Source: Gammaproteobacteria bacterium (GTDB lineage Bacteria; Pseudomonadota; Gammaproteobacteria; Ga0077536). From it: a DNA stretch of 37,461 nt. Shown here in pieces: positions 29,255 to 34,827 of the stretch. The notes beneath the pieces are model-generated. The model ran no database searches. It was given only the letters and a program-made list of their open reading frames with translations, and was not told the DNA's origin. A program made the position numbers and the translations under genes. The DNA lies in assembly GCA_030830685.1 (NCBI GenBank), contig JAURMM010000091.1:1-37461 (forward strand). The letters run 5' to 3'. How positions within the stretch are numbered: position 1 is the stretch's first letter; each line of letters starts with the position of its first letter.

Positions 29255-29280
29255 AACCGAGGGGGCAAGCCCCCCCGGTT
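29255..29280 (-). terminator. Intrinsic terminator of the dimethylformamidase-like operon
   Basis: A 12-bp inverted repeat with one A/C mismatch (AACCGAGGGGGC and its partner) and a 2-base (effectively 4-base) loop follows the cupin stop in the minus direction. It is followed on that strand by TTTCTT. It separates the operon from the downstream two-component genes, though read-through is possible. Confidence 0.65.
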
Positions 29281-29295
29281 CAAGACGGCAGGGCC

Positions 29296-29751
29296 TCAGG
29301 CTGCGGCGCGGCGCTTGGCGTGCCCCTGCTGCATGCGGCGAAGTTCCTCCCACCCGAGGTAGGTGGTGAAACCCTTGTCGTCGAAGAACAGCACCGGGCC
29401 ATCGCAGACGAAGAGATACTCGGTGTCTTCCAGCGCAGTCGTGGCACCGTGGATCATTCCGTTGGGCTCGTAGACGTAGTCACCCGCAGACAGGGTGCCG
29501 TCCCTTACCTGCAGCTTGCCTTTCAGGATGAAGGTGTGGGATGCACTCAGATGCTTGTGCTGGGGCGCTACGAACCCCTTCAGCCAGCGGAAGTGGACGG
29601 CCCAGCGGCCGCTCTCCGCGCCGGTGTAGAGCACCCGCACGAACGCCCGCTCGGGGTCCATGGGCTGCGGGATCCAGTCGTCTTCACTGGCCGGCACCAG
29701 AGTGTCCATGAGTTCCGGATTGATAGGGGAGATGTTCTGCGGCAAAGCCAT
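29296..29751 (-). CDS. Cupin-domain protein, 2,4'-dihydroxyacetophenone-dioxygenase-like
   Basis: A 151-residue single cupin. Metal-binding histidines are visible as H65-x-H67 (PQHKHLSASH), H72 where many cupins have Glu, and H101 in GMIHGA. The GKLQVRDGTLSAGDYVYEP strand pair and the C-terminal FVCDGPVLFFDDKGFTTYLG are as I recall them in 2,4'-dihydroxyacetophenone dioxygenases and relatives, which cleave C-C bonds using Fe(II). ATG 29751 follows GAGGAG by 6 bases; longer upstream starts are not supported. It lies 10 bases after the flavin oxidoreductase and ends the operon. Substrate unknown. Confidence 0.82.
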   Translation of the reverse strand: MALPQNISPINPELMDTLVPASEDDWIPQPMDPERAFVRVLYTGAESGRWAVHFRWLKGFVAPQHKHLSASHTFILKGKLQVRDGTLSAGDYVYEPNGMIHGATTALEDTEYLFVCDGPVLFFDDKGFTTYLGWEELRRMQQGHAKRRAAA

Positions 29752-29761
29752 GATGATCTCC

Positions 29762-30892
29762 TCAACCCACCGCGCGCAGGAAAGCCGGCGCCATGTCGTC
29801 CTCGACCTCGAAGGCAGGGCGTGCACCCAGCTTCTTCAGTTCCGGCATCACTTCCTTGGCGAAGAGGCTAATGTTGGAGCGCGACTGCTCCAGCGACATG
29901 CCGGAATAGCCGAAGACACCGGTGAAGCCGCAGGCATCAGTGCGACCCTGGATGTCCTTGAGCTTTTCATAACACTGCTCCGGGGTACCCCAGACCTGCA
30001 GGTTCATGAAGAATTCCGCCATGCCATCCACACCCATGGTGTCGATGGTCTGGTTGAGCGCGGAGTAATACTCATAGCCCTTGGTGGTGGCGAAGTGGTT
30101 GCTGTGCATCTCGTAGTGCTGGACCACCGAGCGCCAGTAACCGGAGATGTACTTGCGGGCCAGCTCCTCGGCGCGGCCGGCATCCTTGTCGCACATCACC
30201 CAGCCCGCCACGATGGGATTGGGCGCGGCGCGGCCGTGCACGGTCTTGAACAGCTCGTTGTACTCGCGCAGTTCCTGCGCGTGCTGCTCCCACGGCTTCT
30301 GCGGGATCACCAGCAGGCCCACGCCCAGCTTGGCCATGATCTGGGAGGATTCCGCCGAGACTGCTGCGGCATAGGTACGGTTGCGGAAGGACTTGAAGGG
30401 CTCGGGACGGATGCGCGCGCGCGGCTGCTTGATGTGCTTGCCGTCATATTCGCAGTAGCCCTGCTCGAGGCCCTGCAGGACCATCTCGGCGCTTTCCACG
30501 AAGCGCTCGCGGGAATCCCCCATGTTGAGCCTGAAGCCTTCGAACTCTACGCGGGCAAGCCCGCGGCCGATGCCGAACAGTGCACGCCCGTCGCTCATGC
30601 AATCGAGCATGGACATCTTTTCGGCCACGCGCATCGGGTCGTTCCACGGCAATACCACAACCATGGTCCCCAGCTTGACCTTGCGGCAGGCACCGCCGAT
30701 GAAGGACAGGAAATCCACCACATCGGGCATCATGGTGTAGTCGGTGAAGTGGTGCTCGATGCCCCATACGGAATCGAAGCCCAGGCCTTCGGCCATCAAC
30801 GCAATCTTCATGTCCTTCTGGTAGACGGAATAATCGCTGGTGCCCTGGGCGCGGTCCGGGTTCTGGAAGATGGCTGCCATACCTACGTGCAT
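29762..30892 (-). CDS. LLM-class (luciferase-like) flavin-dependent oxidoreductase
   Basis: A 376-residue bacterial-luciferase-like TIM-barrel oxidoreductase, likely FMN- or F420-dependent. SVWGIEHHFTDYTMMPDVVDF, GTMVVVLPWNDPMRVAEKM and ALFGIGRGLARVEFEGF are typical. GAGGAGG sits 6 bases before ATG 30892, which sets the start. It lies 99 bases after the dimethylformamidase-like large subunit; this gap holds a 7-bp hairpin (30965-30985). It needs a flavin reductase if it is a two-component monooxygenase; none is in the window. Its place in the operon suggests oxidative processing of the amide-derived compound. Confidence 0.9.
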   Translation of the reverse strand: MHVGMAAIFQNPDRAQGTSDYSVYQKDMKIALMAEGLGFDSVWGIEHHFTDYTMMPDVVDFLSFIGGACRKVKLGTMVVVLPWNDPMRVAEKMSMLDCMSDGRALFGIGRGLARVEFEGFRLNMGDSRERFVESAEMVLQGLEQGYCEYDGKHIKQPRARIRPEPFKSFRNRTYAAAVSAESSQIMAKLGVGLLVIPQKPWEQHAQELREYNELFKTVHGRAAPNPIVAGWVMCDKDAGRAEELARKYISGYWRSVVQHYEMHSNHFATTKGYEYYSALNQTIDTMGVDGMAEFFMNLQVWGTPEQCYEKLKDIQGRTDACGFTGVFGYSGMSLEQSRSNISLFAKEVMPELKKLGARPAFEVEDDMAPAFLRAVG

Positions 30893-30964
30893 TGTCGACC
30901 TCCTCGCTGTGCGGGTGTTTCCCCGCCTGTTTGTTGCTTTCCTTGACGCCTGTCTGGAACAGGG

Positions 30965-30985
30965 TTGCAGCCAGTGTAGCTGCAA
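30965..30985 (-). other. Intercistronic 7-bp hairpin
   Basis: TTGCAGC and GCTGCAA pair across a 7-base loop in the 99-base gap between the dimethylformamidase-like and flavin oxidoreductase genes. It lacks a T-run, so it may set relative expression or be chance. Confidence 0.25.
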
Positions 30986-30991
30986 GCCGCG

Positions 30992-33268
30992 TCAATCCTC
31001 CACCGCGCCGTCGGCCATGAACCGCTCCAGCACATTGCGGGTGATGCGCGAGATATCCGCGTTGACCGGCAGCGCCTGGCCCCAGGCAATCGAGCCAGTG
31101 GCGAACACGGCACCGTGGCCGGTGGTGGTGAACAGGGTCACATCGCCGCGCACCTGGAAATCCTGGGTGCCGGCGAGGCCCGGATAATTGAACATGATTT
31201 CCTCGCTCACGTGCGGATAGTGATCCGAGTGCTGGCCCTCCGAGGCCGCCAGCAACCAGGTGTGCGGCGGGGTGCCCCAGGCTCGGTCATAGCGGTCAAG
31301 CTCCAGACCGGATGCGCCATTGAGGCCGAGTCCGGTATCTCCGAAAACCTCGTTCTGCACCCCGCGCATGACCCAGGCCACGGCGGAATCGAGAGCATCA
31401 GGCAGCGTGCGGTAGGGTTTGCTTTCGTCCATGCCCTCTGAGGTGAAGCCCACGCCCATGATCTTCTGCGGCGGCCGGCCCCTGTTACGCCAGATGCCGC
31501 CTTTCTCCCCGGTGGTAGCCATGTAGTACTCGCCGGGCGCGGCCTGCCAGGCGCGGGAGCCGGAGTCCAGTTTGCGAATCTCCATGCACCAGGGACTGTC
31601 ATCCCGGAAGGCGACGACCCAGTAGTAGCCATTCGCACCCAGATACATCACACGCCCACCCTCGGCGAGGTAATCCTCGGTCGCGTCCATCATGCGTTCC
31701 GAGTAGTACTCCGAGTGGGTGCCGTTGAGCACCACCTTGTAGGGTGAAAGTGCCGCCTTGCCTTCACGATGCAGATCTTCATCGGTGAGCAGATCCCAGG
31801 CGATGCCGCTCTGTTCCAGCCACCAGATGATCGACATGTCTGCTGCGAACTGCCAAGGCACGCCGGTGGAAGCCATGCGGTGCCTGGGCCGCAAGCCCAT
31901 CACGGGCCGGTGGTACGACACATAACATACGCCTGCACCGTCGTTGTGATGGTCGTAACTCGAACGTCCCCATTCAGGATGTTCGGCCAGCAGATAGTCC
32001 ACATCCTGCAAGACCAGCGGATGGGCGGTCAGAACCTCCACCGCGGGCGCCTCGATGACGAAGCGCTCGTTGGCGTAAGCGAGATAGCTGGCAGTCGGCA
32101 TGAGCATGGCGACCTTGGCCGAGGGTTTGGCCGGTCGCACGAAGAAAGTGAGGTGATCTTCCTGACCATTCCCGCGCAGACGCGCGGCATAGACGCCACT
32201 CGGCAGATCTCCCGGCAGGGTCCAGGAGAGGGCAGGTTGCCAGTGGCAGTCGATGATCGCGTCATCGTTGAAGTAGATGCCGCCGTACTGCGCGGGCGCG
32301 AGGCGGAAGCAGTCGTCCCGACCCTGCCAGTTGTAACCGGTCATGGCGCGAACCGGGCGGTTGTGGCCCTCACCGTGCAGCCCCAGGGGACCAACATCCA
32401 CCAGCCTGTCCCCGATTCCCTTATCCGTATAGCCGGCTGTGGTGTCCCAGCGCGCCACGCAGCCATCCGTCGGCGGCTCGCCGCCGGCGCGCAGACCATC
32501 AAGCTCGGCGCGACTGAGCACCCGGCGCTGGAATCCGGCGCGATCAATCTTGCCGTTGTACAGCGCAGTCACACAGGACCCGTGCTTGCCGTGGCCATGG
32601 ACGCCGGCGAAAAGCAGGGATTCGCCAGCAGGGGCGGGAGCGACCGAGATACGGGTCGCCAGATGGCAATCGTAGGTCAGCGGGACGATGCGCGAGAGCA
32701 GACTGTTCCAGGCATTGATGACCGGCTCCTGGTAGAGAATGATCGTGTGGGTGCTGGCGTCATAGCTGGCCGCGACGAAATACCAGACCTTGGCTACCAG
32801 GGGTGTGGTCGCCGCCACTTCGGTCTGCTCTGCGCCATTGCCCAGCCTGAGCGACAGGCGTCCGTAGGGATTGATACCGAGCGCGAAGCCGAGGCCGGCC
32901 TCCCCGGGTGCCTTACCGTCCACCCATTGCGAGATGAGGCCTTGCCGCCCCTGTCCCGGGGTAGTGGGCCAGATGAAGGCATGCACGGTGAATCCCGCAC
33001 TGGGCGCAAAGTCGTTGCGTGGATCGGCTACCTCGATATAGCTGCCCGCCTGGGTGAACTGGTGGGTGACAGGAATTTGCCCGTTGCAGCTGGCAGAGAT
33101 TTCCTTTTCCACAAAACCTGGTCCGCGTGGATTCTCGTCGCCGTGGAGCAGGCGGACGATGTGCAGATCGACAGCATCCACGCCTTCACCGCTGATCATG
33201 AATGTTTGTGTCTCACCAGCCTTGAGGCTGAGCTTGTCGCAATAACCGGTCACATAAGGCATGGGCAT
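30992..33268 (-). CDS. dmfA2: N,N-dimethylformamidase-like large subunit
   Basis: A 758-residue protein close in size to the known large subunit (about 760). A jelly-roll/LamG-like domain spans about residues 80-190 (GFTVHAFIWPTT, GKAPGEAGLGFALG). The catalytic C-terminal region from about 380 carries the iron-site pattern I recall from Paracoccus DMFase: Tyr398 (SYLAYANER), Tyr438 (RSSYDHH), and His518/Glu520 (GTHSEYYS). ATG 33268 lies one base after the small-subunit stop, with GGGGAG 7 bases upstream. DMFase hydrolyses N,N-dimethylformamide to dimethylamine and formate. The wider family is diverse, so another amide is possible. Confidence 0.85.
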   Translation of the reverse strand: MPMPYVTGYCDKLSLKAGETQTFMISGEGVDAVDLHIVRLLHGDENPRGPGFVEKEISASCNGQIPVTHQFTQAGSYIEVADPRNDFAPSAGFTVHAFIWPTTPGQGRQGLISQWVDGKAPGEAGLGFALGINPYGRLSLRLGNGAEQTEVAATTPLVAKVWYFVAASYDASTHTIILYQEPVINAWNSLLSRIVPLTYDCHLATRISVAPAPAGESLLFAGVHGHGKHGSCVTALYNGKIDRAGFQRRVLSRAELDGLRAGGEPPTDGCVARWDTTAGYTDKGIGDRLVDVGPLGLHGEGHNRPVRAMTGYNWQGRDDCFRLAPAQYGGIYFNDDAIIDCHWQPALSWTLPGDLPSGVYAARLRGNGQEDHLTFFVRPAKPSAKVAMLMPTASYLAYANERFVIEAPAVEVLTAHPLVLQDVDYLLAEHPEWGRSSYDHHNDGAGVCYVSYHRPVMGLRPRHRMASTGVPWQFAADMSIIWWLEQSGIAWDLLTDEDLHREGKAALSPYKVVLNGTHSEYYSERMMDATEDYLAEGGRVMYLGANGYYWVVAFRDDSPWCMEIRKLDSGSRAWQAAPGEYYMATTGEKGGIWRNRGRPPQKIMGVGFTSEGMDESKPYRTLPDALDSAVAWVMRGVQNEVFGDTGLGLNGASGLELDRYDRAWGTPPHTWLLAASEGQHSDHYPHVSEEIMFNYPGLAGTQDFQVRGDVTLFTTTGHGAVFATGSIAWGQALPVNADISRITRNVLERFMADGAVED

Positions 33269-33269
33269 C

Positions 33270-33629
33270 TCACTTCTCCCCATCGGCCAGAAGATCTGCC
33301 ACATGGCGCAGGAACACCGCGTGATAGGCAGTCATTTCATCGTCGAAAACCACTTCATCCACGGGCTGCGGAGGTTGTCCTGGGGTAATCGGCATACGGA
33401 TGACCTGCCAGGTGCGCATCGGCACCCGCGAATAGAGCGCGTAGGTGGGTGGACGACTGAAGAAGTTCTTGACTCGCTGCAACGCATCCGAGCCCTGTCC
33501 CAGCGGCTTGCGACGATGCTCTTCTATGAGCGCGCCGGTGATGAGCCCCTTGATCTCGGCCCGTTTGGCCTCGTTGAATCGCGCATAGACGAGATGCTGC
33601 TTGTCCGGTGTCTTCACCGCTCCTCCCAT
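33270..33629 (-). CDS. dmfA1: N,N-dimethylformamidase-like small subunit
   Basis: A 119-residue protein matching the size class of the dimethylformamidase small subunit (about 130). It is helical with many charged residues (FNEAKRAEIKGLITGALIEE), then a Pro-rich region with PPTYALYSRVPMRTW. It sits directly upstream of the large subunit, as in characterised DMFases, with a one-base gap between stop and start. ATG 33629 follows GAGGGG by 8 bases. Without the neighbour I would not name it; the pairing is what supports the call. It is needed for the heteromeric enzyme in known systems. Confidence 0.75.
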   Translation of the reverse strand: MGGAVKTPDKQHLVYARFNEAKRAEIKGLITGALIEEHRRKPLGQGSDALQRVKNFFSRPPTYALYSRVPMRTWQVIRMPITPGQPPQPVDEVVFDDEMTAYHAVFLRHVADLLADGEK

Positions 33630-33780: not shown

Positions 33781-34827
33781 ATGCACGAACAGGTTCAGCA
33801 GTATTACGGCGAAGCCCTGCAATCCAGCGCCGATCTGAAGACCAGTGCCTGCTGTGATGTAAGCAGCCTGCCCGCTTGGTTCAAGCCTCTGCTGACCGGC
33901 ATTCATCCGGAAGTGCTGGCCCGCTACTACGGCTGCGGACTGGTCTGCCCACCGCTGCTGGAGGGATGCCGTGTGCTCGACCTCGGTTGCGGCAGCGGCA
34001 GGGATGTTTATGCGCTGGCGCAGCTGGTAGGCGCACAAGGCGAAGTGGTGGGCGTGGACATGACCGACGCCCAGCTCGCGGTGGCGGAGCGTCATCGCGC
34101 CTGGCATGCCGAGCGTTTCGGTTTTGACAACGTCAGTTTTCTGCGCGGTTACATCGAGCGTCTGGACGAGCTGCCACTGGAAGCCGGCAGCTTCGATGTG
34201 ATCGTGTCGAACTGCGTGGTCAATCTCTCGCCCGACAAGGATGCCGTGCTGTCCGGCATCAAGCGCTTGCTGAGGCCGGGCGGCGAATTTCATTTTTCCG
34301 ATGTGTACGCCGATCGCCGTGTGCCGGCAGCAGTGCGCGAAGATCCGGTGCTTTATGGAGAGTGTCTCGGGGGGGCGCTCTACTGGAACGATTTTCTGCG
34401 CCTCGCGCATCAGCACGGCTTTGCCGACCCGCGTCTGCTCGAAGATCGGCCACTTGCGATCACAGCGCCCGAGCTTGCAGTGCGACTTGGCAACCTGCGT
34501 TTTTTTTCCGCGACCTACCGGCTGTTCAATCTGGATGACTTGGAAACTGCTTGTGAGGACTACGGCCAGGCCGTGATCTACCGGGGCACCGTGCCGGGAC
34601 ATCCGGCCCGCTTCACGCTGGACGCGCACCATGGGATCGAGACCGGCAAAGTCTTCCCGGTGTGCGGTAACACCTGGCGCATGCTGGCGGACACCCGTTT
34701 TGCCCCCCACTTCGACTTCATCGGCGACTTTTCCTGCCACTATGGGATTTTCGCGGGCTGCGGAACGAATCTGCCGTTCCGGGAAGGCGGGGATTCCGTG
34801 TCTGCAGGCACGGGAGCCTGTTGCTAG
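33781..34827 (+). CDS. arsM: Arsenite S-adenosylmethionine methyltransferase
   Basis: A 348-residue cytoplasmic enzyme that methylates As(III). The SAM motif is VLDLGCGSGRDVY (about residues 65-77). Cysteines at the three arsenite-binding positions are visible: C24/C25 near the N-terminus, C145 in SNCVVNLSPDK and C195 in YGECLGGALYW. The C-terminal half has VCGNTWRML and the CGTNLPF segment typical of ArsM, ending in CC. CGGAG precedes the ATG. No arsR or other ars gene is adjacent, so induction by arsenite is not shown. It lies divergent from the dimethylformamidase-like operon. Confidence 0.92.
   Translation: MHEQVQQYYGEALQSSADLKTSACCDVSSLPAWFKPLLTGIHPEVLARYYGCGLVCPPLLEGCRVLDLGCGSGRDVYALAQLVGAQGEVVGVDMTDAQLAVAERHRAWHAERFGFDNVSFLRGYIERLDELPLEAGSFDVIVSNCVVNLSPDKDAVLSGIKRLLRPGGEFHFSDVYADRRVPAAVREDPVLYGECLGGALYWNDFLRLAHQHGFADPRLLEDRPLAITAPELAVRLGNLRFFSATYRLFNLDDLETACEDYGQAVIYRGTVPGHPARFTLDAHHGIETGKVFPVCGNTWRMLADTRFAPHFDFIGDFSCHYGIFAGCGTNLPFREGGDSVSAGTGACC

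Follow-up and report, generated by a model that had tools for sequence, protein, structure and literature searches.

A dimethylformamidase-family gene pair followed by luciferase-like and Dke1-like genes in a gammaproteobacterial family

Introduction

The locus described here raises the question of what a relative of dimethylformamidase (DMFase) hydrolyses when two predicted oxidative enzymes are encoded directly behind it, and whether these enzymes work together. The iron site of DMFase is unusual. Since N,N-dimethylformamide (DMF) is synthetic and of recent date, the family must have arisen on another compound, and there is hardly any characterised relative whose natural substrate is known. 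The four genes lie on the minus strand at 33629-29296 of the window, that is, the whole stretch of 37,461 nucleotides that was analysed (contig JAURMM010000091.1 of a Gammaproteobacteria bacterium). They encode, in order, homologues of the small and large DMFase subunits, a luciferase-like monooxygenase (LLM) and a cupin. The window genome (G000) has 3.09 Mb and is 91% complete. It is placed in a single gammaproteobacterial family, called f1 below, whose named members are metagenome-assembled genomes; according to their titles, several come from lakes or groundwater. An earlier note, made from the DNA letters, had proposed that hydrolysis and two oxidations cooperate in one pathway for an N-substituted amide or an aryl ketone. 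The reading that we favour, with a probability of about 0.6, is that the first two genes encode an iron-dependent DMFase-family enzyme that hydrolyses a small N-substituted amide, with methylamine as the probable product, and that the LLM and the cupin form a semi-independent oxidative unit which is likely co-expressed with it.

Results

The amidase and its iron site

The four genes were found at the place given in the earlier note, including the single base (33269) that separates the two subunit genes:

33629-33270, minus strand: DMFase small-subunit homologue, 119 amino acids (phmmer to 6lvb_B, E 2.1e-10); directly 5' of the large gene in relatives too
33268-30992, minus strand: DMFase large-subunit homologue, 758 amino acids, ATG at 33268 (Pfam DMFA2_C, 3.7e-91; 6lvb_A, E 7e-178)
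30892-29762, minus strand: luciferase-like (LLM) flavin-dependent monooxygenase by domain, 376 amino acids (Pfam Bac_luciferase, 4.6e-56; 1brl, E 6.5e-37)
29751-29296, minus strand: Cupin_7 protein, Dke1-like, 151 amino acids (Pfam Cupin_7, 1e-25; phmmer to 3bal, E 3.5e-10; Foldseek to 3bal, E 7e-9)

Both subunits match the solved Paracoccus DMFase. The large one does so over its whole length (6lvb_A, residues 6-756), scores 306.8 bits for DMFA2_C against a Pfam cut-off of 27, and is 41.5% identical over 749 positions to DmfA2 of Paracoccus aminophilus (pAMI2). The small one is encoded by a separate gene, one base upstream, and matches 6lvb_B. When the large subunit was aligned to DmfA2, residues Y399, Y440, H519, E521, N547, S395 and F693 fell on Y398, Y438, H518, E520, N546, S394 and F693 of the window protein. 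The iron ligands Y398, Y438 and E520 and the catalytic H518 and N546 are all present, and the tyrosines and the His/Glu pair stand at exactly the numbers that the earlier note had given. Mutants of the Paracoccus enzyme have shown that Y440, E521 and H519 are essential and that the large subunit is inactive without the small one (PMC7686228). Membership of the DMFase family, the iron site and the subunit structure are established at the level of sequence, and amidase activity is predicted from them. The two subunits would form an iron(III)-dependent amidohydrolase in which Fe(III) is held by Y398, Y438 and E520 and the active site is completed by H518 and N546, and which would cleave small N-substituted amides by hydrolysis at the C-N bond.

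The LLM and the cupin

A luciferase-like oxidoreductase and a dioxygenase-type cupin had been proposed for the third and fourth genes, and Pfam and the nearest structures agree with both. The LLM scores 190.9 bits for Bac_luciferase against a cut-off of 27.9, and its nearest solved chain is bacterial luciferase alpha (1brl), with which it shares an EHHFT segment. By domain it is predicted to be a flavin-dependent monooxygenase of the luciferase family. No NCBIfam subfamily reached its cut-off among the matches listed, and the AlphaFold model was too poor for use (predicted local distance difference test, pLDDT, 47.5). LLM oxidoreductases are extremely numerous across f1: an initial search marked as many as 111 candidate positions in one genome, and no more than 34 per genome were scored.

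The closest solved relative of the cupin is acetylacetone dioxygenase Dke1 (3bal), both by sequence and by fold (Foldseek with a model of pLDDT 67), followed by 2,4'-dihydroxyacetophenone dioxygenase (4p9g, 5bpx); identities in the structural alignments are about 26% and 20%, respectively. The cupin had been called acetophenone-dioxygenase-like: the dioxygenase-type kinship holds, but Dke1 is the nearer of the two. In the HMMER alignment, Dke1 residues H62, H64, H104, R80, E98 and T107, whose roles have been described (PMC4019311), correspond to H65, H67, H101, R83, E95 and T104, and these six are invariant across all orthologues examined, including a 63% identical homologue from Sphingopyxis. 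In the MAFFT alignment, Dke1 is shifted by one register at E98, whereas HMMER pairs both glutamates. Dke1 itself cleaves a beta-diketone in an O2-dependent reaction; of its hydrophilic gate (Tyr70-Arg80-Glu98), the cupin keeps R83 and E95, and Y70 is replaced by T73. The downstream pair would therefore consist, by its relatives, of an LLM monooxygenase and a Dke1-like Fe(II) dioxygenase with a 3-His site. The Pfam domain name, 'ChrR Cupin-like', might instead suggest a ChrR-like sensor or binding protein with no oxygenase function. Such a role is judged very unlikely, as the protein is without a sigma-factor-binding domain, its nearest structures are dioxygenases and the six Dke1 active-site positions are kept. 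On a plasmid of Sphingopyxis sp. 113P3 (L077:12001-12974), the gene for the 63% identical cupin is immediately followed by one of the glyoxalase family, a neighbour that would be in keeping with an alpha-keto aldehyde as product.

Conservation of the gene arrangement

Co-occurrence of LLM, cupin and amidase was surveyed in 58 relatives and in sampled genomes. Amidase orthologues were present in 23 f1 genomes, at 60-92% identity, whereas a sample of 22 genomes of other families in the class had none. The order large subunit-LLM-cupin was found in 12 genomes of two genera, g1 (G000, G001, G002, G004) and g4 (G008, G016, G022, G027, G030, G032, G034, G035), so that the genes are linked in related genomes; it was not seen outside f1 in the genomes searched. 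Every genome with an amidase orthologue also has an LLM orthologue, and across orthologues the LLM is 80-97% identical, compared with 61-92% for the large subunit. Variants of the order occur. The large-subunit and LLM genes of G004 are separated by a gene for an AraC-type regulator, encoded on the opposite strand, so the amidase and LLM-cupin halves may be under separate promoters there. In G033, three genes, among them an AraC-type gene on the opposite strand, separate the large subunit from the LLM, and no cupin was found. In G013 (genus g9), the large subunit and the LLM are present and the cupin is absent from the cluster. In G001 and in many clusters of g4, the cupin gene is succeeded by a GST-like gene of the type that also accompanies the unlinked cupin in other genera; it is absent from the window, and G000 has just a 41% homologue elsewhere in the genome.

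Outside f1, a scan of GTDB genomes found no LLM or cupin by the nearest amidases, which are alphaproteobacterial and Gemmatimonadota relatives at 50-55%. Most of these are accompanied by the small subunit, and several stand after a branched-chain-type ABC transporter. Cupin orthologues outside f1 were likewise not found among 369 genomes sampled from the class. In agreement with the earlier note, no LLM or cupin is annotated near the known DMF pathway loci of pAMI2 and pLVM1, where several genes are just called 'hypothetical'. A literature search for DMFase together with luciferase gave nothing among open-access papers, subscription papers being outside its coverage, and the conserved amidase-LLM-cupin arrangement appears to be undescribed in the open-access papers searched.

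Quick trees, built without bootstraps, were used to look at the history of the linkage. In the large-subunit tree, the f1 orthologues formed one clade (SH-like approximate likelihood-ratio test, SH-aLRT, 100), distinct from that of pAMI2 DmfA2. The 14 rows of g1, g4 and g9 formed a subclade within it (support 89) that contains every LLM-linked member, and the LLM tree recovered the same g1/g4/g9 group (support 98). The simplest reading of these trees would be that the oxidative pair, formerly separate genes in f1, became linked to the amidase in a single event, in the ancestor shared by g1, g4 and g9, and came apart later in G003 and G005. The LLM and the cupin are older in f1 than their linkage to the amidase: nearly all of its genomes have them, some of these with no amidase orthologue.

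Methylamine pathway and substrate

No homologue of PF11927, which we take to cover dimethylamine monooxygenase, was found in the about 91% complete G000, other dimethylamine-oxidising enzymes being outside this search. Contig C231 of the same genome (L120) carries in one run gmaS, above its curated cut-off, and mgsABC-like and mgdABCD-like genes, which together make a complete N-methylglutamate pathway by comparison with the published gene composition (PMC4543880). In P. aminophilus, the dmm genes are required for growth on DMF (PMC4543880), and Paracoccus DMFase reaches its highest catalytic efficiency with N-methylformamide (PMC7686228). The PF11927 result, the N-methylglutamate pathway and this preference make a monomethylamide look more likely than DMF as the substrate. 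The amine released would likely be methylamine or a similar small amine, and could go into the N-methylglutamate pathway of the genome.

DMFase paralogues

Up to six DMFase-like matches were detected per f1 genome (e.g. L100, L107, L108, L101, L102, L112, L117). In other genomes, such paralogues adjoin ammonium transporter and glutamine-synthetase-like genes, a setting that fits amine and nitrogen scavenging; a branched-chain-type ABC transporter and hydantoinase A-type genes are further f1 settings. In the ammonium-transporter clusters, a protein of about 130 amino acids with no Pfam match is encoded after the large-subunit gene (L100:6309-6728, cluster e7). Alphaproteobacterial loci (L055, L058, L059, L063, L060, L071) carry tandem pairs of large-subunit genes with one copy missing an iron-site residue: Tyr440 is replaced by Cys in Bradyrhizobium and Rhodopseudomonas, Glu521 by Ala in Aminobacter (pMDW2), and Tyr399 by Phe together with His519 by Arg in Methyloligella. 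That different residues are lost suggests independent events, and perhaps mixed dimers of active and inactive copies.

Transcription and neighbouring genes

The gaps between the four genes are 1, 99 and 10 nt, and a purine-rich stretch is read directly 5' of all four starts. A simple promoter scan detected no promoter-like site between the genes, its sole hit being inside the large-subunit gene. From their spacing alone, the four genes are predicted to share one transcript. The terminator that the earlier note called good was described a little generously: the hairpin is strong, but its Us are taken up by the stem and the tail, UUCUUCGG, is a poor U tract. The other features around the locus are:

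29281-29254, minus strand: possible terminator hairpin 3' of the cupin gene, with a stem of 12 bp (-31.4 kcal/mol, z -2.9)
29201-27264, minus strand: PAS-domain sensor histidine kinase, next gene downstream (Pfam PAS/HisKA_3/HATPase_c); syntenic in G001, G004, G005
27283-26642, minus strand: LuxR-type (GerE) response regulator that pairs with the kinase (Pfam Response_reg and GerE); syntenic in G001, G004, G005
33781-34827, plus strand: ArsM-like arsenite methyltransferase, divergent upstream neighbour of the amidase; same place in G002, G003, G005

Discussion

We propose that the amidase supplies a small amine and that the four genes are most likely co-expressed and serve the same nutritional niche, the LLM and the cupin using as substrate a ketone-type or aldehyde compound, possibly the acyl half of the amidase substrate. 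The LLM-cupin pair stands apart from the amidase in two sister species, G003 and G005; in G005 they lie about 26 kb from each other on the same contig in opposite orientation, which one inversion could account for. Several observations weigh against the proposal. The amidase is unlinked in seven genomes of g6, g7, g8 and g10. The LLM and the cupin occur in nearly every f1 genome, and eight genomes (G007, G015, G017, G020, G021, G023, G029, G031) have the LLM (at least 66%) or the cupin (at least 71%) with no amidase orthologue; the loci are separate and their neighbours differ. In g3, g5, g7 and g8, the unlinked cupin belongs to an operon-like run thiolase-DUF1329-SDR-cupin-GST-GST-like-glutaredoxin/rhodanese, some members of which are missing in some genomes, and the g8 LLM adjoins another LLM and a gene for an AraC-type regulator. 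These separate homes argue against an obligate partnership with the amidase. As to the substrate, the N-methylglutamate pathway is found in almost the whole of f1, most members of which have a match above the curated cut-off for its glutamine-synthetase-type gene family; the pathway is not specific to the locus and backs a monomethylamide substrate only loosely. Finally, P. aminophilus has a second dmfA1-dmfA2 locus, about 40% identical to its DMFase, which has not been connected with the use of DMF (PMC4543880); belonging to the family therefore does not determine what is hydrolysed, and sequence cannot assign a substrate.

How far the four genes cooperate separates the alternatives. The earlier note took them as consecutive steps on one molecule, an N-substituted amide or ketone. 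The order kept on one strand in 12 genomes of two genera and the constant company of an LLM orthologue fit this, and the chemistry could fit as well, because Dke1-type cleavage gives an alpha-keto aldehyde (PMC4019311) and LuxA-type enzymes are established to oxidise aldehydes. However, the eight genomes with LLM and/or cupin orthologues and no amidase orthologue, the split loci of G003 and G005, the AraC-type gene of G004 and the cupin that stands without LLM in the thiolase operon of other genera leave a single pathway plausible but not supported as it was stated, and we consider it doubtful. Nothing speaks specifically for an aryl ketone. At the other extreme, the LLM and the cupin would be functionally unrelated to the amidase, their adjacency being an accident of lineage kept by descent. 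The restriction of the linkage to g1 and g4 (amidase-LLM without cupin in g9), the separability of the halves in G003 and G005, the opposite-strand AraC-type gene of G004 and G033 and the stronger conservation of the LLM would all agree with this. Yet the order outlasts divergence of the large subunit to about 64% while the flanking genes on both sides change, and we regard an accident as rather unlikely.

A DMFase in the strict sense splits DMF into formate and dimethylamine. Ordinary degradation of DMF or N-methylformamide by a plain DMFase, with incidental neighbours, would account for the intact active site (F693 included), for a methylamine pathway in G000 and for a family whose Paracoccus member works best on N-methylformamide (PMC7686228). 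Against it stand the distance to the pAMI2 enzyme in identity and clade, the fact that no DmfR-type LuxR activator gene is annotated or recognised adjoining the window amidase, and the search of G000 that found no PF11927 homologue, while P. aminophilus needs dmm for growth on DMF (PMC4543880); we regard it as unlikely. The hydrolase with a semi-independent oxidative unit remains our preferred reading. A bolder version of cooperation, which we hold to be quite improbable, would be a new type of route for an N-(methyl)amide with a beta-dicarbonyl or keto function: the Fe(III) enzyme would free the (methyl)amine, the Dke1-like enzyme would split the keto fragment into a carboxylate and an alpha-keto aldehyde, a speculative step taken from Dke1 chemistry, and the LuxA-like enzyme would oxidise the aldehyde to the acid. 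If true, an uncultured lineage of lakes would have a kind of pathway that is new to the literature. More generally, a conserved neighbourhood with two predicted oxygenases, up to six paralogues and a methylamine pathway offers a testable lead to the natural substrates of the DMFase family.

Compared with known systems, the window enzyme is like Paracoccus DmfA1-DmfA2 (6lvb; pAMI2) in its small-large order, full-length domain family, identical iron ligands and catalytic His and Asn. It differs in its 41.5% identity, its separate clade and the LLM and cupin genes that follow it. N-acetyl-(R)-beta-phenylalanine acylase (8huy) is also a homologue of the large subunit (E 6.5e-106), although more distant and, in the matched PDB entries, named as just one protein; it shows that DMFase-family members can hydrolyse other amides, and our literature search found no paper linking this acylase with DMFase. 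The LLM shares the fold family and the EHHFT motif with bacterial luciferase alpha (1brl) and other LLM oxidoreductases, but has Gly in place of the Cys of the luciferase FGICRGL motif. The cupin shares the cupin fold and the 3-His site with Dke1 and 2,4'-dihydroxyacetophenone dioxygenase and has equivalents of Dke1 R80, E98 and T107, whereas Y70 and E69 of Dke1 are T73 and H72. The window amidase is a new member of a known family.

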